The notes under the pieces: model-generated
The model's input: only the letters and a program-made list of their open reading frames with translations
Told to the model about the DNA's origin: nothing
The model's database searches: none
DNA from: an uncultured Caryophanales bacterium
Lineage (GTDB): Bacteria > Bacillota_I > Bacilli_A > RF39 > UBA660
Reading direction: 5' to 3'
DNA: 39,025 nt
Assembly (NCBI GenBank): GCA_946412015.1
Contig: CAMKGA010000001.1
Coordinates: forward strand, 65,041 to 104,065
Position numbers and translations under genes: made by a program
Part shown: one piece after another, positions 19,796 to 30,771 of the stretch
How the letters are laid out: the number at the start of each line of letters is the position of its first letter
Position numbering within the stretch: the first letter of the stretch is position 1

Positions 19796-20083
19796 CTATT
19801 TTTTTATATCTAACAAAAATTTAACAAATTCAGATTCAGCTTTATCACATGCAATTTTATGTCATATCTTAACAGCATCTTGCAAAATTTCTCTATCTGT
19901 TAATTTTAAAAATTCATCTAATCTTTTTACCCAATCTTCCATTGTCATTGGAATATGCCTTTTTGCTCTATCTTCTGCTAAATCAAGATATGCCGTAACA
20001 ATTCTTCTTAATGAGTACAACTCATCTTCATTTAAATAATTTTTTGCAACTAATACATCACTTTTTATAATTTTTCCATTAGG
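19796..20083 (-). pseudogene. rhuM: C-terminal part of rhuM, split from its N-terminal part
   Basis: From PNGKIIKSDVLVAKNYLNEDEL through RRIVTAYLDLAEDRAKR and IPMTMEDWVKRLDEFLK to DREILQDAVKI this is the conserved C-terminal section of RhuM-family proteins. An in-frame TGA at 19862 interrupts it; the frame then continues HKIACDKAESEFVKF, also RhuM-like, to a TAG at 19796. In the present arrangement it is translated only as the tail of the upstream recombinase remnant. The N-terminal half sits about 4.9 kb away at 24972-25358. Confidence 0.75.
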
Positions 20084-20677
20084 AACTAATGACACGGATT
20101 TATCATCGTTAATATCATATACATAATCAGTTCCTATTTTTAGGATAAACCTAACAACATTAGAATTTATACTTTTATCTTCACATTTTTCTCCAACAAT
20201 AATCTTCTCAACTAAATTATTAAAGATATTTTCATCAAATTCTTTAATTTCATTTTTTAACATTCCAATCTTTTTATTTATTTCTTTTTCCTTTGATAAA
20301 TAAACATCAACATGTTTTTCTCTAAGTAATCTTATATATTTTAAGGTATCAAGTGTATTTCGAGCAAACCCAGATATAGACTTAGCGATAATAATATCAA
20401 TTTTGCCATTAATTGCATCATCAATCATTTTAGTAAACTCTACTCTATTTTTTACTTGTGTACCACTGATTCCTTCATCAGCATAAACACCTACAAAATC
20501 CCAGCTAGAATTAGATTTTATCATTTTAGAATAATGCTTAATTTGTGAATTATAACTTGTTTGTTGTTCTTCTGAGTCTGTACTTACTCTCGCATAAGCA
20601 CAAACTTTCTTCTTTAAATTATTAACGATTTCATCTTCAGTTTTGAGATTAGCTTTAATAATCTCAACTTGTGCCAT
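19862..20677 (-). pseudogene. large serine recombinase remnant: internal deletion, fused to RhuM tail
   Basis: Start at ATG 20677 (MAQVEIIKAN) after AGAGAGG. Residues 24-125 are a serine recombinase catalytic domain (VCAYARVSTDSEEQQTS with the nucleophilic Ser; YADEGISGTQVKNR; NTLDTLKYIRLLREK). The frame then jumps straight to the C-terminal coiled part (SKEKEINKKIGMLKNEIKEFDENIF), so roughly 250 or more residues, including the zinc-ribbon DNA-binding region, are missing without loss of frame. The family's SISRFARNT reads SISGFARNT here, losing one active-site Arg. From about residue 198 onward the protein is RhuM sequence. Almost certainly inactive for recombination; a truncated DNA-binding product cannot be excluded. 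Confidence 0.85.
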
Positions 20678-20877
20678 TATACCTCTCTTTCTAAAATATT
20701 TGACAATCAATATCTGATATACCCCATAAATAATTATAACTTATTTTTTTATAATAAAATACACTTTTTACTAAAATTATTTAATTTTTTATAATTGAAT
20801 AAATAATATTGCTTGCCATATATATCAAATATTATACCTATTATACACTCTTGACATGGCATATACTAGTGCATGAG

Positions 20878-20999: not shown

Positions 21000-23361
21000 T
21001 TATATATTCATTACTTGCTGACTTGGTTCATTAATTATTTCATAACCCATATTATTATAAATTTTTTTACGCTTTAAAAACATATTACGAGTTTTAGCAA
21101 AATTATCATCTACATAATCATATATTAATATTTCTTTTTTAGTGCTATTTTTTCGATGTAATCTTCCTGCATATTGAGTTAAACGTGTATTACCAGAAAT
21201 TGGCATAGTTAAAAATAATACATCTAACGATGAATCATCAAAACCTTCACCAATATATGCACCTGTTGCTATAATAATTTTGTTTTTCTTATTTTTATCA
21301 ATTTGGTCCATTAATTCGTCATACTTCTTTAAAATCTTTTTACCAATTCCACCATAATATTTAAAAGTATTGCTAGTAAATTCTGATAATTTATTATAAA
21401 TATAATCTAAATGTTCTAATCTTTCTGTTAAAACAAGTATGTTTTTACCTTTATCAAATTCTTTTTTTACATCAGAAATTATCTTTTCACTTCTTAGTAT
21501 ATCTTTTGCAATAAAATCATTAATCTCATTTAATTCATAATTATCTATTTTAGGATCAACAAAATTTAGATGACTTTGTTTCACTATTACCTTCATTGGA
21601 ACATTCAACTCTTTATTAAATTTTAAAGTATCTACTCTATATCTAATATCACCACATTGCATTTTGATAATAGGAGTATGTCCATTTTCTCTTTCTGATG
21701 TTGCAGAAATTCCGTAAACATATTTAGCGTTACCTGTATTTATGGCCTGTTCAAATGTATATGCTGCAGTATGATGACACTCATCAATAATAATCATTCC
21801 ATAATTTTTAGCAATATCTAATACATTACCATTATTCCAAATAGATTTGATACTAGCTACATCTATTTCATTAGTAATACTCTTCTTTTTACTACTTATT
21901 TCACCAACTTCATCAATATTTAAAAACTCTTTTATTCTATTTTTCCACTGAGTTAATAACTGTAGTTTATTAACTAATATTAAAGTATTAACTTTACGTT
22001 CTTCTATCAGTTTATATCCTATAACAGTTTTTCCAAAAGCTGTAGGCGCACATAATATACCATTATCATATTTCATTAGTTTAGAAAGAGCAATATCTTG
22101 ATTATCACGTAACTTTCCATTAAACTGAACATCAATCTTTTTACCTTTATTTCTTTTATCCTTTTTTCTTATTTTTATTCCGTTTTCTTTGCATAATATT
22201 TCTAAATATTCAAATGTTCCTCGTGGTAACTTTAAATATTTATCATCTTCCTTACTACAATTAATGACCATAGGAATATTATAAACTGACATTCTAAGTC
22301 TCTGTTTTTTATAAAATTCTGGATTAGCAAATGTTGCTAATCTTCTAAAACTATTAATAACAGATGCGCTTAAATTAGCTTTATCAATATAAACCATATC
22401 ATTAAGTATGACATCAATACTTTTAGGATAATCAATATTATTAATTTTTTTATCAGATATTTCTTGTTTTAAATCTTCTACTTCATGACCTATATCAATA
22501 GTTTTATTAGAAAGTTTTTTTATCAATTGAAAAATTTCCTCTTCAGTTAATTTATGTGTGTTTTTTAAATATGACATTGGGTGTCTTATTGTAATAAAAT
22601 TTCTATCAATAAAAACCGAATTTCCATATTTACTTGGTTCAGTTTGATATGGTAAAGCAATTAAATTGCCATAACCACCTTTAGGAAGATAATCTTGATT
22701 TGGAAACATTCTATCAAATGATGAAATAGAAATATTACTAACTTCCATTGTTTTCGATAATAATAAACTACCTAATTTACGAGCTGTAAGAGCTTTTATA
22801 TTCTTTTCAAAGAATATCCAAATATGAATCCCACTACCTGATCTACTTTTTTCTAAAACGATTGGAATATCATAATCATCACATACGCTAGAAAATGCCA
22901 AAACCTCACTTTTTATATCCTTATCATTATTTTTATCATCAAAATCAAAAGCAAAAAAAATAACAAGTATCATCTGCAAGTAAAGGATATATACCTATTG
23001 TTTTATTATTACATAGATGCTTATATATTATATCTTTTGTTAGAGGAATATTTTCTCTATATTTACAGTTTTTACACTTTTTACCCATAGTTTTATTACA
23101 AACACCCTGTCGCCATTCATTTTTACATGCTGGTTGATAATACTTATTATCTTTATTAATTGATAAATAAGGATATACATCATCGCAACCTTTAAAATAA
23201 TCCATAAATATAGAAACTTTTTCATCAAAACTAAGAGTTTTTAAATTTTCATTTTCTTTTTCTTCATCAAGATGCTTTTCTAATTCTTGTATTTCGTTCT
23301 CTAACTTTTTAATTAATGACTTTTTACTATCAATTTGCCTTTTTATCTCTTCAACATTCAT
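21000..23361 (-). pseudogene. TOTE-type primase-helicase, split by a +1 frameshift in a T8 run
   Basis: Two track ORFs (22945-23361 and 21000-22979) are one gene. Order: N-terminal coiled coil (ENEIQELEKHLDEE); FKGCDDVYPYLS and Cys cluster PACKNEWRQGVC / KCKNCKY; an archaeo-eukaryotic primase domain (LLADDTCYFF | AFDFDDK, SRSGSGIHIWIFFE, FPNQDYLPKGGYGNLIALP); then an SF2 helicase with APTAFGKT, IIIDECHH, SAT and QYAGRLHR. With seven instead of eight T's at 22953-22960 the frame is continuous, 786 residues, and CYFF runs into the catalytic DFD. As assembled, the first ORF ends after CYFFCF. Could be a mutation, an assembly error, or slippage. Follows abiEii by 2 nt. TOTE systems are predicted biological-conflict modules. 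Confidence 0.85.
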
Positions 23362-23363
23362 GG

Positions 23364-24179
23364 TTATACCTCGATTAATTCTAATGATGATAAATAATCT
23401 ATAATACTATTTATAACATCATCTACCGGCATTTCAAGCCAGTTGTTTCTTGCCATATTAATCCTTCTTTTAAATCTGTTATTAGATAAAACATCCCCTA
23501 TACTTTCTTTAACTTCATTTATTGTTCTTTCTTCAACCATACTATCCTTAAAAACAATTTTATCTAGATATGATAAAAACCGAATTTTATCAAAACTATG
23601 AATATTTACTAAATAATATACATCAAAAATATCCTTATATCTTGTAGAAACTATTCCAAATCTAAGTAATGATTTTATCTTTTCAACACATATTTGTTCC
23701 ATCGAATTGGCAAGTAATAAAACTGTTTCTGAATCTGCATTCAAATCAAAACATAATTCATCTTGTTCAATATTAGTATCTTTATGTATACCTATATCTA
23801 GTTTAGTAGAAAACGTATTTCCGTGATTATCTGATATATCTATAATAACTCTTTTCCCATCATAATCCTGGTGATGTAATTTTTGTATTGAGTTAACAAT
23901 TTTTATTTTAACTTCATCATCATTAAGTTTTTTGATAAATTCTACAATTGCAGAATCTTCTAATGAATATCTGATAAAATCTAAATCAATGTCTTGAGTA
24001 GCACGACGTTTATCTTTAGATATAGCCATCATTGCTAACCCACCTTTAATTGTAATATTTTTATTTAAATCAGATTTACTAATCTGTCTTAATATAATAT
24101 CTTGACAAGTCTTAGCCATAGCATTTGCTCCTGAATATCCCGAAGATACATAATTAGTTAAAATAGTATTTAGATTCAT
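23364..24179 (-). CDS. abiEii: AbiEii/AbiGii-type nucleotidyltransferase toxin
   Basis: 271 residues of the DUF1814-like nucleotidyltransferase family. Visible: ITIKGGLAMMAIS (motif I) and RRATQDIDLDF (the metal-binding D-x-D) in the first 75 residues; then KLDIGIHKD, VEKIKSLLRFGIVSTRYKDIFDVYYL, and a C-terminal helical part. Family members are toxins of type IV AbiE systems that cause abortive infection or growth arrest, in studied relatives by adding nucleotides to tRNA. One-base overlap (TAATG) with the antitoxin gene, and 2 nt from the primase-helicase, so all three are one operon. No lesion seen. Confidence 0.88.
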   Translation of the reverse strand: MNLNTILTNYVSSGYSGANAMAKTCQDIILRQISKSDLNKNITIKGGLAMMAISKDKRRATQDIDLDFIRYSLEDSAIVEFIKKLNDDEVKIKIVNSIQKLHHQDYDGKRVIIDISDNHGNTFSTKLDIGIHKDTNIEQDELCFDLNADSETVLLLANSMEQICVEKIKSLLRFGIVSTRYKDIFDVYYLVNIHSFDKIRFLSYLDKIVFKDSMVEERTINEVKESIGDVLSNNRFKRRINMARNNWLEMPVDDVINSIIDYLSSLELIEV

Positions 24180-24721
24180 TAAAAAACCTCTTTCATTATT
24201 ACATCATATAAATAATCTTCAATAGCATACTTGCTTATATATTCAGAAATTTTTTTTATATTTAATTCATCTTTAATTTCTCTATAATTATTTATTATTT
24301 CTTTATAATAATCAAATCCTATTGCCTTCTCATTTCTAATTAATTCAATCAACATTCTTTCCTTATCATATATATTTATTTCTGCTCCATTTACTTTTAT
24401 AGTAGTTTTTCCAATATCAAAAAACTTATCTTGATAATATATAACTTTAATTCGATCATCACTAATTTTAGTGCTATCTCTTTTTATAGCAAGATATTCT
24501 TTATCTGGAATAACATCTGTTAAATTATGATAATAAAAAGCACTATTCATCGTAAATACAGCATCAGGATATTTTTTCGTTATTACTTCTAAGTAATTAA
24601 CATTTAAGCAATCACTATAGATACCTTTTTCCACTTTAATTATCTTTCCTTCATTTATCATTTTTTTAATTTTATCATTCGATTTATATTTTTTTCTTAA
24701 TTCTTTATATAGATATATCAA
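24179..24721 (-). CDS. abiEi: AbiEi-type antitoxin/transcriptional regulator
   Basis: The track starts at GTG 24730, but that codon lies in the RBS GAGGTGA; a TTG at 24721 with five-base spacing is the likelier start (about 180 residues). The N-terminus is a winged-helix domain typical of AbiEi (ELRKKYKSNDKIKKMINEGKIIKVEKGIYS), then a C-terminal alpha/beta region with FTMNSAFYYHNLTDVIP, DRIKVIYY and IYDKERMLIELIR, all as in this antitoxin family. Known AbiEi proteins counter the AbiEii toxin and repress their own operon through inverted repeats; a fitting perfect inverted repeat lies in the promoter here. Confidence 0.86.
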   Translation of the reverse strand: MIYLYKELRKKYKSNDKIKKMINEGKIIKVEKGIYSDCLNVNYLEVITKKYPDAVFTMNSAFYYHNLTDVIPDKEYLAIKRDSTKISDDRIKVIYYQDKFFDIGKTTIKVNGAEINIYDKERMLIELIRNEKAIGFDYYKEIINNYREIKDELNIKKISEYISKYAIEDYLYDVIMKEVF

Positions 24722-24741
24722 ACAAATCACCTCACAAAAAA

Positions 24742-24794
24742 ATATTAACCTAATTTACCACAAAAGTCAAGCACATGTGGTAAATTAGGTTAAT
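24742..24794 (-). promoter_or_regulatory. abiE-primase operon promoter inside a perfect inverted repeat (operator)
   Basis: Minus strand -35 TTGACT (24770-24765), 17-nt spacer, -10 TAATAT (24747-24742). An 18-bp perfect inverted repeat TTAACCTAATTTACCACA / TGTGGTAAATTAGGTTAA (24745-24762 and 24776-24793; 19 bp with one more pair) brackets the -35, one arm filling the spacer between -35 and -10. This is the expected place for AbiEi autorepression. Confidence 0.8.
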
Positions 24795-24971: not shown

Positions 24972-25358
24972 AACTAGCCAATTTGTTAAACCCATATGTT
25001 CTTTATTTGCAGCAGCTTTATTATTATCTACTTTAAATCCGATAGCAATTATCATTTGAAGATTATAATGTACAACATTTCTTGAAATATTGCGATTATC
25101 CTTTTTTTAACTATTCGAAATTTTCGAATAGTTAAATCTTCATTCAATTCATTTTCATTATAAATTTTTTAATATGATAATTTATAGTATTTGTTTCAAC
25201 ATTATAAAGAGTTGCTAACATCTTTTAAGTTAGCCATATATCCTCATCTTCATATCTTACTTCAACAGATTCTTTATCATCCCCTGTTAAAGCAACAAAT
25301 GTTAAATACTCTGCTGTAATTGACCTAATAGTTATATTCTTCTTTTTAATTTAATCAT
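24972..25358 (-). pseudogene. rhuM: N-terminal half of rhuM, decayed
   Basis: Hand translation in three frames gives a clear RhuM N-terminal half: ITAEYLTFVALTGDDKESVEVRYEDEDIWLT, then a TAA where the family has Gln, KMLATLYNVETNTINYHIKK, a -1 shift in an A-run, NELNEDLTIRKFRIV, another shift, then NRNISRNVVHYNLQMIIAIGFKVDN, and finally KEHMGLTNW. The start codon region is also lost (AGGAG is present near 25361). RhuM is a widespread virulence/Fic-associated family of unclear function. Its missing C-terminal part is at 19796-20083, across the inserted element. Confidence 0.8.
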
Positions 25359-25961: not shown

Positions 25962-26618
25962 TTATTCTCCTATTCCATCTATACAGTTTTCTATAATAAA
26001 TTTCTTTAATTTAGAATTATCATTAGTCTCATAATACTCTATTAAATGAGTAAAATAAGTACCAATTAAATCTACTGGTACATTTATAATACCAAGGCCA
26101 TTTCTAATAAACTCTTTATTTGCAACAAGATTTGCAACTCTTTTGTTGCCATCTTGAAACATTTGGCTTTTCTGTATCCAGCAAAATAAGTTTATAGCCA
26201 TATCTTGCTTATCAGAGTTATTTAAAATATCATTTAATTCTTTATTATAATCACACTCACTAGGTAACTTAGGTTTCCAGGATGTTCCAGTAATTCCAAC
26301 ACCATGTTCTCTAAACTCACCTAATGGATTAACATTCTGACCCTTACATATTTCAAAATGAATCTTTTTTATATAATCTATAGTTAAATCTTCATCTACA
26401 GTATCAATAATATACTCCCAAGCATCCTTCAATCCTTTTAATTTGAGTATATTATCTATAGATATATGACCATTATTTACATTATTGTAAAAATCTACAG
26501 TATCAGCAAATGTAACAGCAATTCCTTCAAGATTAGCGCTTTTATAAATATTATCAATTATTTTTCTCTTTGCAAAAAATATATTGTCTTCTTTAGTCAT
26601 ATTATATAATCTATTCAT
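25962..26618 (-). CDS. Fic/DOC-family protein with altered catalytic motif
   Basis: 218 residues. The Fic fold is recognisable: FREHGVGITGTSWKPKLP (the beta-hairpin/flap region), then INLFCWIQKSQMFQDGNKRVANLVAN, the Fic motif. The usual H-x-F-x-D-G-N-(G/K)-R has Gln in place of the catalytic His (QMFQDGNKR), so AMP- or phospho-transfer by the standard mechanism looks unlikely, though this may be a subfamily trait. It lies between proS and frr with gaps of 7 and 2 nt, thus coexpressed with two translation genes. Target unknown. Confidence 0.82.
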   Translation of the reverse strand: MNRLYNMTKEDNIFFAKRKIIDNIYKSANLEGIAVTFADTVDFYNNVNNGHISIDNILKLKGLKDAWEYIIDTVDEDLTIDYIKKIHFEICKGQNVNPLGEFREHGVGITGTSWKPKLPSECDYNKELNDILNNSDKQDMAINLFCWIQKSQMFQDGNKRVANLVANKEFIRNGLGIINVPVDLIGTYFTHLIEYYETNDNSKLKKFIIENCIDGIGE

Positions 26619-29613: not shown

Positions 29614-30771
29614 ATGAATAAAATATATAATACTCAAGAAAAAATTGCAACTAAATTAAAGAATTTTTTATTAGAATGTTTTGGTAATATTAGAAAAACT
29701 CAACTTAAAATCATTCCTTATATTGTTATTGGTATGATTTTAGCTGGTTCTACTGTTGCATCCGATATCGCAATGAAATTAAAGGATAGCTTTTCACTAA
29801 TACAACATGACTCTATTATCAAAAGAATAAAAAGATTCTTTATAAATAAATTATTTAATCCTTATGCCTTTTACGATAAGGTTATTAGATATGTTTTTTT
29901 AAACTATACTGTAAAGCATGAGGATAAACGTGTTCATATCATTTTTGACCATATGTTCTCTCACGATAATTATACTGTTTTTATGATTACTATGAGAATT
30001 GGAAAACAAGGTATACCTTTATGGTTTAGATGTTATAAGGGAAAAGATGATCCTAAAGCATTCGATGAGGAAATGTTAAAAAAAGGAATCTCCTATGCAT
30101 CATCGTTATTTCCAGCTGATTATGACCTAATTTTCCTTGCCGATAGATGGTTCAATTCTACTTCACTTCTTGATTACATTGATTCTTTAGGAAGAACCTA
30201 TGTTGTCAGACTAAAAGGAAATATAAGATGTTATGTTTATGATAAAAAAGAAGGTCATAAAATTTGGACAACCACCGGTAATTTATATGCTTATGAGAAT
30301 AAATCAGCATTTTACAATGATATTGAAATCACTAACAACCAATTTAAAACAAATATCACAGTAAACAAAAAGAAAGGCGTTAAAGAGCCATGAATTATTG
30401 CCACAAACGGAGATACTAAAAGAGCTATTAAGGATTATGGCTATCACTTTGGTAGTATTGAAACACTATTTAAAAATCAAAAATCTAATGGTTTATATTT
30501 AGAATCGACTGTAAAAGCTGATATTAAATATTTTGAATCAATGTATACTATGGCTTGCTTTTCTGTACTTTTTCTTACAATATATGGAGCAGATTATACT
30601 AAAAACTCTAACTGTTATAAAGGAGTTAAAGTAACTACTCATAAAAATATCAATGGCACTAAAACACGAGTTATGTCTTTATTTAGTATAGGATTAATGT
30701 TATTTAATAAAGCAATTAATTCCCTGAAATACATTCGGATACCTTTTACACTAAAATTATACGATACCTAA
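29614..30771 (+). pseudogene. IS4-family transposase with in-frame TGA
   Basis: The track shows 259 residues ending at a TGA (30391-30393) and a second ORF from 30541; both are one 385-codon frame. DDE features: first Asp in HIIFDHMFSHD, second in LIFLADRWFNS, and the Glu in the IS4-like signature Y-x-x-R/F-x-x-IE-x-x-F-x-x-x-K, here YHFGSIETLFKNQKSNG, which lies after the TGA. The stop interrupts KEP(TGA)IIATNGD, where a Trp (TGG) fits. The N-terminal product lacks the catalytic Glu, so this copy is dead unless TGA is read through; TGA is a real stop in this genome. Confidence 0.85.

Follow-up and report, generated by a model that had tools for sequence, protein, structure and literature searches.

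A repeatedly formed abiEi-abiEii-TOTE primase-helicase operon in uncultured gut Bacilli

The three-gene operon

The window analysed here is a stretch of 39,025 nt from an uncultured Caryophanales bacterium, and forms part of contig 1 of a 57-contig, 1.69-Mb genome (a draft metagenome assembly). Scans of the window for open reading frames (ORFs) and with Pfam and PADLOC placed three genes on the minus strand in the order abiEi, abiEii and TOTE primase-helicase, with a 1-nt overlap between the first two and a 2-nt gap between the second and the third. As its operator the unit has a perfect inverted repeat (24744..24794, minus strand), the 19-bp arms of which stand 13 nt apart, identified by a repeat search against shuffled sequence; the longest arms in 20 shuffles of the operator region measured 9. 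A TTGACT-17-TAATAT promoter (24742..24770, minus strand) lies across this operator and is the only recognisable promoter of the unit. A similar promoter was present at the same place 5' of abiEi in most of the linked abiE loci and in many of the free ones. The tight operon proposed in the initial annotation, with its three genes, its overlap, its gap and its promoter embedded in an operator, was confirmed, with the qualification that the third gene is not a single open frame (see below).

The first gene, abiEi (24179..24730, minus strand), encodes the predicted antitoxin and repressor of the AbiE pair (183 aa) and was recognised by PADLOC (AbiEi, 1e-64), while the Pfam scan of the window abiEi gave no match. 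The AbiEi profile matched 6y8q, the solved structure of Streptococcus agalactiae AbiEi, at 7e-12. The start codon is uncertain; the annotated GTG falls partly within the likely ribosome-binding site, and translation may therefore begin three codons further downstream. The second gene, abiEii (23364..24179, minus strand), encodes a predicted DUF1814 nucleotidyltransferase (NTase) toxin of 271 aa (PADLOC AbiEii, 5e-98; Pfam PF08843, 4e-18), and the AbiEii profile matched chain B of 9hlo (AbiGII) at 5e-12. Both of the motifs defined for the AbiEii toxin family, hG[G/S]-x15-DhD and +DxxD (PMC3985639), are carried by the window protein, as hGG-x15-DhD (GG-x15-DxD) and K182-D183-x2-D186, and their key residues were invariant in an alignment of 12 sequences. 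The adjacency of abiEi and abiEii in one operon and the position of the promoter inside an upstream inverted-repeat operator are those of an AbiE type IV system.

The TOTE primase-helicase

The third gene (23361-21000, minus strand) matched PF22548 (AEP-TOTE), ResIII and Helicase_C in Pfam. An AEP-TOTE domain followed by a superfamily 2 (SF2) helicase is the arrangement of TOTE primase-helicases (PF22548), the AEP domain of which is named by Pfam after 'TOTE conflict systems'. The reading frame is not intact in the window copy. ORFs and Pfam matches divide the gene into a 5' piece, with a coiled coil and the first part of the AEP domain (22945..23361, minus strand), and a 3' piece, with the rest of the AEP domain and an XPB-like SF2 helicase (21000..22979, minus strand; also supported by the predicted fold). 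The break lies inside the AEP domain, at a run of eight T (22953..22960, minus strand), where the sister copy L060 is open. This copy, from another assembly, is 97% identical at the nucleotide level over 3985 bp and holds a single open frame of 786 aa. A programmed frameshift is unlikely, because at this position the intact relatives in the alignment read through in a single frame and L060 has no break. Codon comparison of the 3' piece with L060 gave a dN/dS of ~0.11, which points to purifying selection until recently, and the break is therefore either young or an assembly error. With a single assembly to go by, it may stem from an error in sequencing or assembling the T run. The window copy appears to be decaying, with an intact abiE pair, a broken primase-helicase frame and a dead surrounding element.

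The structure of the primase-helicase was predicted from 24 homologues (mean pLDDT 85.5, pTM 0.72). The predicted AEP domain resembled the CRISPR-associated Prim-Pol (CAPP, 7nqd), with a TM of 0.84 over the CAPP chain at 28% identity, and the helicase part resembled XPB and RadD in the predicted fold and also in the sequence search. The models of CRISPR-associated Prim-Pol matched the primase-helicase in part only. A Prim-Pol model matched the N-terminal part of a UG10-type defence reverse transcriptase at L042:1313-3793. No functional study of TOTE primase-helicases was found in the literature searched, the coverage of which was incomplete for subscription papers and bioRxiv preprints.

Distribution of the pairing

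A collection of 84,980 species was scanned and yielded 191 relatives, of which the best 80 were read; the genomes were draft metagenome assemblies, and the family databases were dated from 2023 (PADLOC) to 2026. The abiEi-abiEii-TOTE order was observed in ~20 loci among these best 80 of 191 relatives, near-identical copies not being independent, and the hosts were uncultured gut Bacilli (Bacilli, Tenericutes, Bacillales and Erysipelotrichaceae). In the main groups, the gap between abiEii and TOTE ranged from -11 to +5 nt, with L062 as the exception (+43), and the order and tight spacing were kept in every trio of the scan. With the layout near abiEii conserved in the ~20 loci, the neighbours of close homologues are not random, as the initial annotation had expected them to be in a chance juxtaposition.

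An AEP-TOTE domain was found in 20 of 241 genomes of the order to which the window belongs. In the wider phylum, TOTE was above the cut-off in 22 of 392 sampled genomes, and 20 loci were read; in one of them, L257, TOTE is directly preceded, across a gap of 65 nt, by DUF6577 and AbiEii genes that form an NTase toxin-antitoxin pair. In L091, another type of AbiE was observed 177 nt downstream of TOTE. No abiE was present beside the Bacillaceae, Cloacimonadota or Treponema TOTE genes in the scan loci read, nor in the annotations of four plasmid TOTE loci, where TOTE stands alone. That the unit is confined to one lineage is rejected by L062 (Erysipelotrichaceae) and L257 (another family); the adjacency thus extends beyond one lineage, but not to the Bacillaceae and plasmid TOTE loci read. 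Pairing counts are approximate, since some of the 'abiE-less' TOTE loci (L058, L064 and L048) are cut by contig ends.

Among the tight neighbours of 103 TOTE loci, counted by cluster, abiEii was found 19 times, a SLFN_AlbA_2/HATPase_c_4 protein 8 times and the family X540 4 times, and the remaining close neighbours were mostly singletons. TOTE therefore has several recurrent tight partners. The SLFN_AlbA_2/HATPase_c_4 proteins stand directly behind abiE-less TOTE genes (L061:6261-7958; L075:8312-9988; L078:8395-10065, by homology; L073:8451-9911). X540 is a family of ~540 aa that overlaps or adjoins TOTE genes in several lineages (L058:2486-4135, L093:8321-9922, L063:6486-7645, L085:2414-4072 and L262:481-2088), with no Pfam match in the members scanned (L058, L093 and L063) and no PADLOC match in L058 and L093. 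Type I restriction, AbiLi and PDC-S02 were observed as defence-type neighbours of TOTE units.

Independent origins and separable modules

The AU test rejected one common origin for the AbiEii proteins linked to TOTE (p = 7e-8), also when L062 was left out (p = 0.004). In the tree, the abiE of L062, from an Erysipelotrichaceae genome, is of separate origin and nested among free abiE. Its operator is of the GTCGGGTA type of the free abiE pairs L165-L167, and not of the TGTGGTA type; the operator travels with abiE. L257, from another family, holds an NTase toxin-antitoxin pair of a different kind, and L085 and L088 combine a clade-A AbiEii with a TOTE whose clade otherwise lacks abiE. The abiE-TOTE pairing arose at least three times, and five pairings are likely.

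Chance juxtaposition of two genes common in genomic islands is a very improbable reading of these data. Both genes do occur near other defence genes, and several of the trio copies are near-identical and hence not independent. Against this stand the several independent origins with tight spacing, the rank of abiEii as the commonest tight neighbour of TOTE genes and the purifying selection on the trio genes (dN/dS of about 0.08-0.29 for TOTE and abiE, whole genes). Chance adjacency was rejected on the neighbour clusters and on the AU test against a single origin.

The two modules were also found apart. About 60 loci of this abiE subfamily were present in 385 genomes, and none of 37 free abiE pairs had a same-strand ORF of at least 100 aa within 28 nt downstream. 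The majority of TOTE loci have no abiE, and the majority of abiE pairs have no TOTE. An intact TOTE with an abiE remnant was observed in L047, and clade-A abiE without TOTE in L157 and L158. Loss or exchange can thus affect one module and leave the other in place.

Mobility and insertion site

L053 and L094 were 99.8% identical over 4128 bp, and L086, L087 and L092 were 99.5-99.8% identical over ~4.09 kb, in both cases with different flanks. In related species the trio moves between species as a compact cassette of ~4.1 kb. Both ends of the cassette carry CCCCCTGAA followed by a small hairpin, and in L053, L055, L066, L086, L087, L090 and L092 this core flanks the trio on both sides. The core with its hairpin was found in 51 of 241 genomes, and a control pattern in none. 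Four tyrosine-integrase genes that were read lie 124-140 bp from such a core, and in L090 the integrase gene starts 95 bp beyond the right core of the trio, in tandem. Cis-mobilizable elements (CIMEs) accrete next to integrase elements (PMC5704250). In the relatives, flanking attL and attR sites with no integrase between them were observed, as in a CIME, and the cassettes between CCCCCTGAA cores fit cis-mobilizable elements accreted beside integrase elements, with putative excision.

The window copy does not have these ends, and its reading as a CCCCCTGAA-ended cassette was rejected, as there is no core anywhere in the window. It sits between the two parts of an interrupted rhuM gene and adjoins the remains of a serine recombinase gene. 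The 3' fragment of rhuM (19814..20080, minus strand; profile positions 157-245) lies downstream of the unit, and the 5' fragment (25011..25124, minus strand; profile positions 5-42, below the family cut-off) upstream. The large serine recombinase (19862..20710, minus strand; ORFs and Pfam) retains an N-terminal resolvase domain, is missing its middle and is fused to the 3' end of rhuM. Elsewhere in the window, a Fic/DOC-family gene (25962-26618), a PADLOC candidate (PDC-S04), lies between frr-like (25417) and prolyl-tRNA synthetase-like (26626) genes, both named from their translations. A transposase-like ORF at 29614-30393, assigned from its translation, is encoded on the plus strand, unlike its neighbours.

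A conserved, undescribed small RNA gene of ~100 nt was observed upstream of the CCCCCTGAA core in L195, L199 (1430-1534), L204, L222, L224 and other loci. It has a promoter of its own and comprises two hairpins, a stretch rich in C and a terminator, and the terminator is the attachment site of the tyrosine-integrase elements and the trio cassettes. The central hairpin covaries strongly, with two-sided changes in 7 of 9 pairs, and no Rfam family matches the small RNA as such.

A DUF1016/YhcG nuclease gene (PADLOC PDC-S02) was found in L028 (5297-6298) on a separate stretch between two CCCCCTGAA cores, directly before a trio cassette; this arrangement suggests arrays of cassettes. A phage origin of TOTE was rejected, as phage records match the helicase half only and the scan of viral contigs gave no full-length TOTE.

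Possible function of the unit

The reading that we slightly favour is that of two autonomous modules, joined for shared control by AbiEi and for retention, with TOTE as the cargo. AbiE autoregulates, gives phage resistance and stabilises mobile elements (PMC3985639; PMC11062541). In the cassette, AbiEi would repress its own promoter and so keep the primase-helicase low, and the primase-helicase and the toxin would rise together when AbiEi falls, for instance during takeover of the host or soon after the arrival of the cassette in a new cell. AbiE would slow growth and punish loss of the cassette, and the cargo would act on foreign nucleic acid through unwinding, together with priming or copying of strands; an action on foreign DNA is suggested by the family label and the neighbourhood of the primase-helicase. 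The modules would not form one obligate complex.

A physical partnership could explain the recurrent tight pairing equally well. In a single composite defence machine, the primase-helicase would sense or process invading DNA and directly release or activate AbiEii, after which growth stops. This is rather unlikely, in spite of the independent recurrence of the pairing in one tight operon and of the abiE-less TOTE genes with SLFN-AlbA or X540 instead, which resemble a core with exchangeable effectors. Each module occurs mostly without the other, one module has been lost while the other stayed open, and in the case that has been studied AbiE is a type IV system whose components do not interact (PMC3985639). 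Given the independence of the two modules, co-control with retention is the likelier of the two readings. The helicase as a sensor or effector guarded by the AbiE pair, one proposal of the initial annotation, thus found no support, the modules being usually apart and lost or exchanged singly. Its alternative, that AbiE addiction holds the helicase in place, fits better once shared control is added, and the addiction itself would be as described above.

The recurrent partners leave some room for a wider idea, that TOTE might be the constant core of an undescribed modular class of defence in gut Bacilli, in which the core switches on an exchangeable effector of the same operon. Just as tentatively, the effector would be a Schlafen/AlbA-ATPase protein, X540 or an NTase toxin-antitoxin pair, either AbiE or a different one.

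A role outside defence is improbable; here the primase-helicase would replicate or repair the excised cassette and AbiE would prevent its loss from the cell. In favour of it, priming and unwinding belong to replication, the trio is compact and mobile, and TOTE genes were found on plasmids and, next to genes for AlpA and inovirus Gp2, in a region that resembles a satellite. However, SF2 helicases of the XPB/RadD type are repair-like rather than replicative, and the phage and viral-contig results given above also speak against this role.

The unit offers a concrete case, selected for repeatedly, in which the promoter of a toxin-antitoxin pair seems to govern a further candidate defence gene, and the place of the toxin-antitoxin pair as addiction, switch or effector becomes directly testable. 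The loci also show candidate partners of TOTE primase-helicases, and a mobile-cassette route for the exchange of such units among gut bacteria.

Comparison with known systems

Neither a description of an abiE-TOTE trio nor a paper with the phrase 'TOTE conflict systems' was found in the literature searched, which did not include most subscription papers or any bioRxiv preprints, and the trio may be new. As in CIMEs, the trio cassette of the relatives lies between two copies of the attachment core with no integrase inside, and in L090 an integrase element is directly beside it; unlike CIMEs, the window copy is without attachment-core ends, and excision in the relatives is putative. The CAPP (7nqd) is alike in the predicted fold of its AEP domain, and differs in its second domain; in a non-systematic look at the surroundings, no CRISPR system was noticed next to the unit. 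The TOTE conflict-system primase-helicases (PF22548, annotated as 'DEAD/DEAH box helicase family protein') share the AEP domain followed by an XPB-like helicase. Plasmid homologues in E. coli, Acinetobacter and Sinorhizobium are 38-39% identical over 94% of the length, but the plasmid copies for which the annotation was read stand alone, without abiE. With the AbiE type IV systems of Streptococcus agalactiae and Lactococcus, the unit shares the bicistronic abiEi-abiEii arrangement, the promoter set within an inverted repeat close to the start, the DUF1814 motifs and the link to mobile elements. The known systems consist of two genes, whereas the present unit has a third gene fixed downstream of the one promoter.
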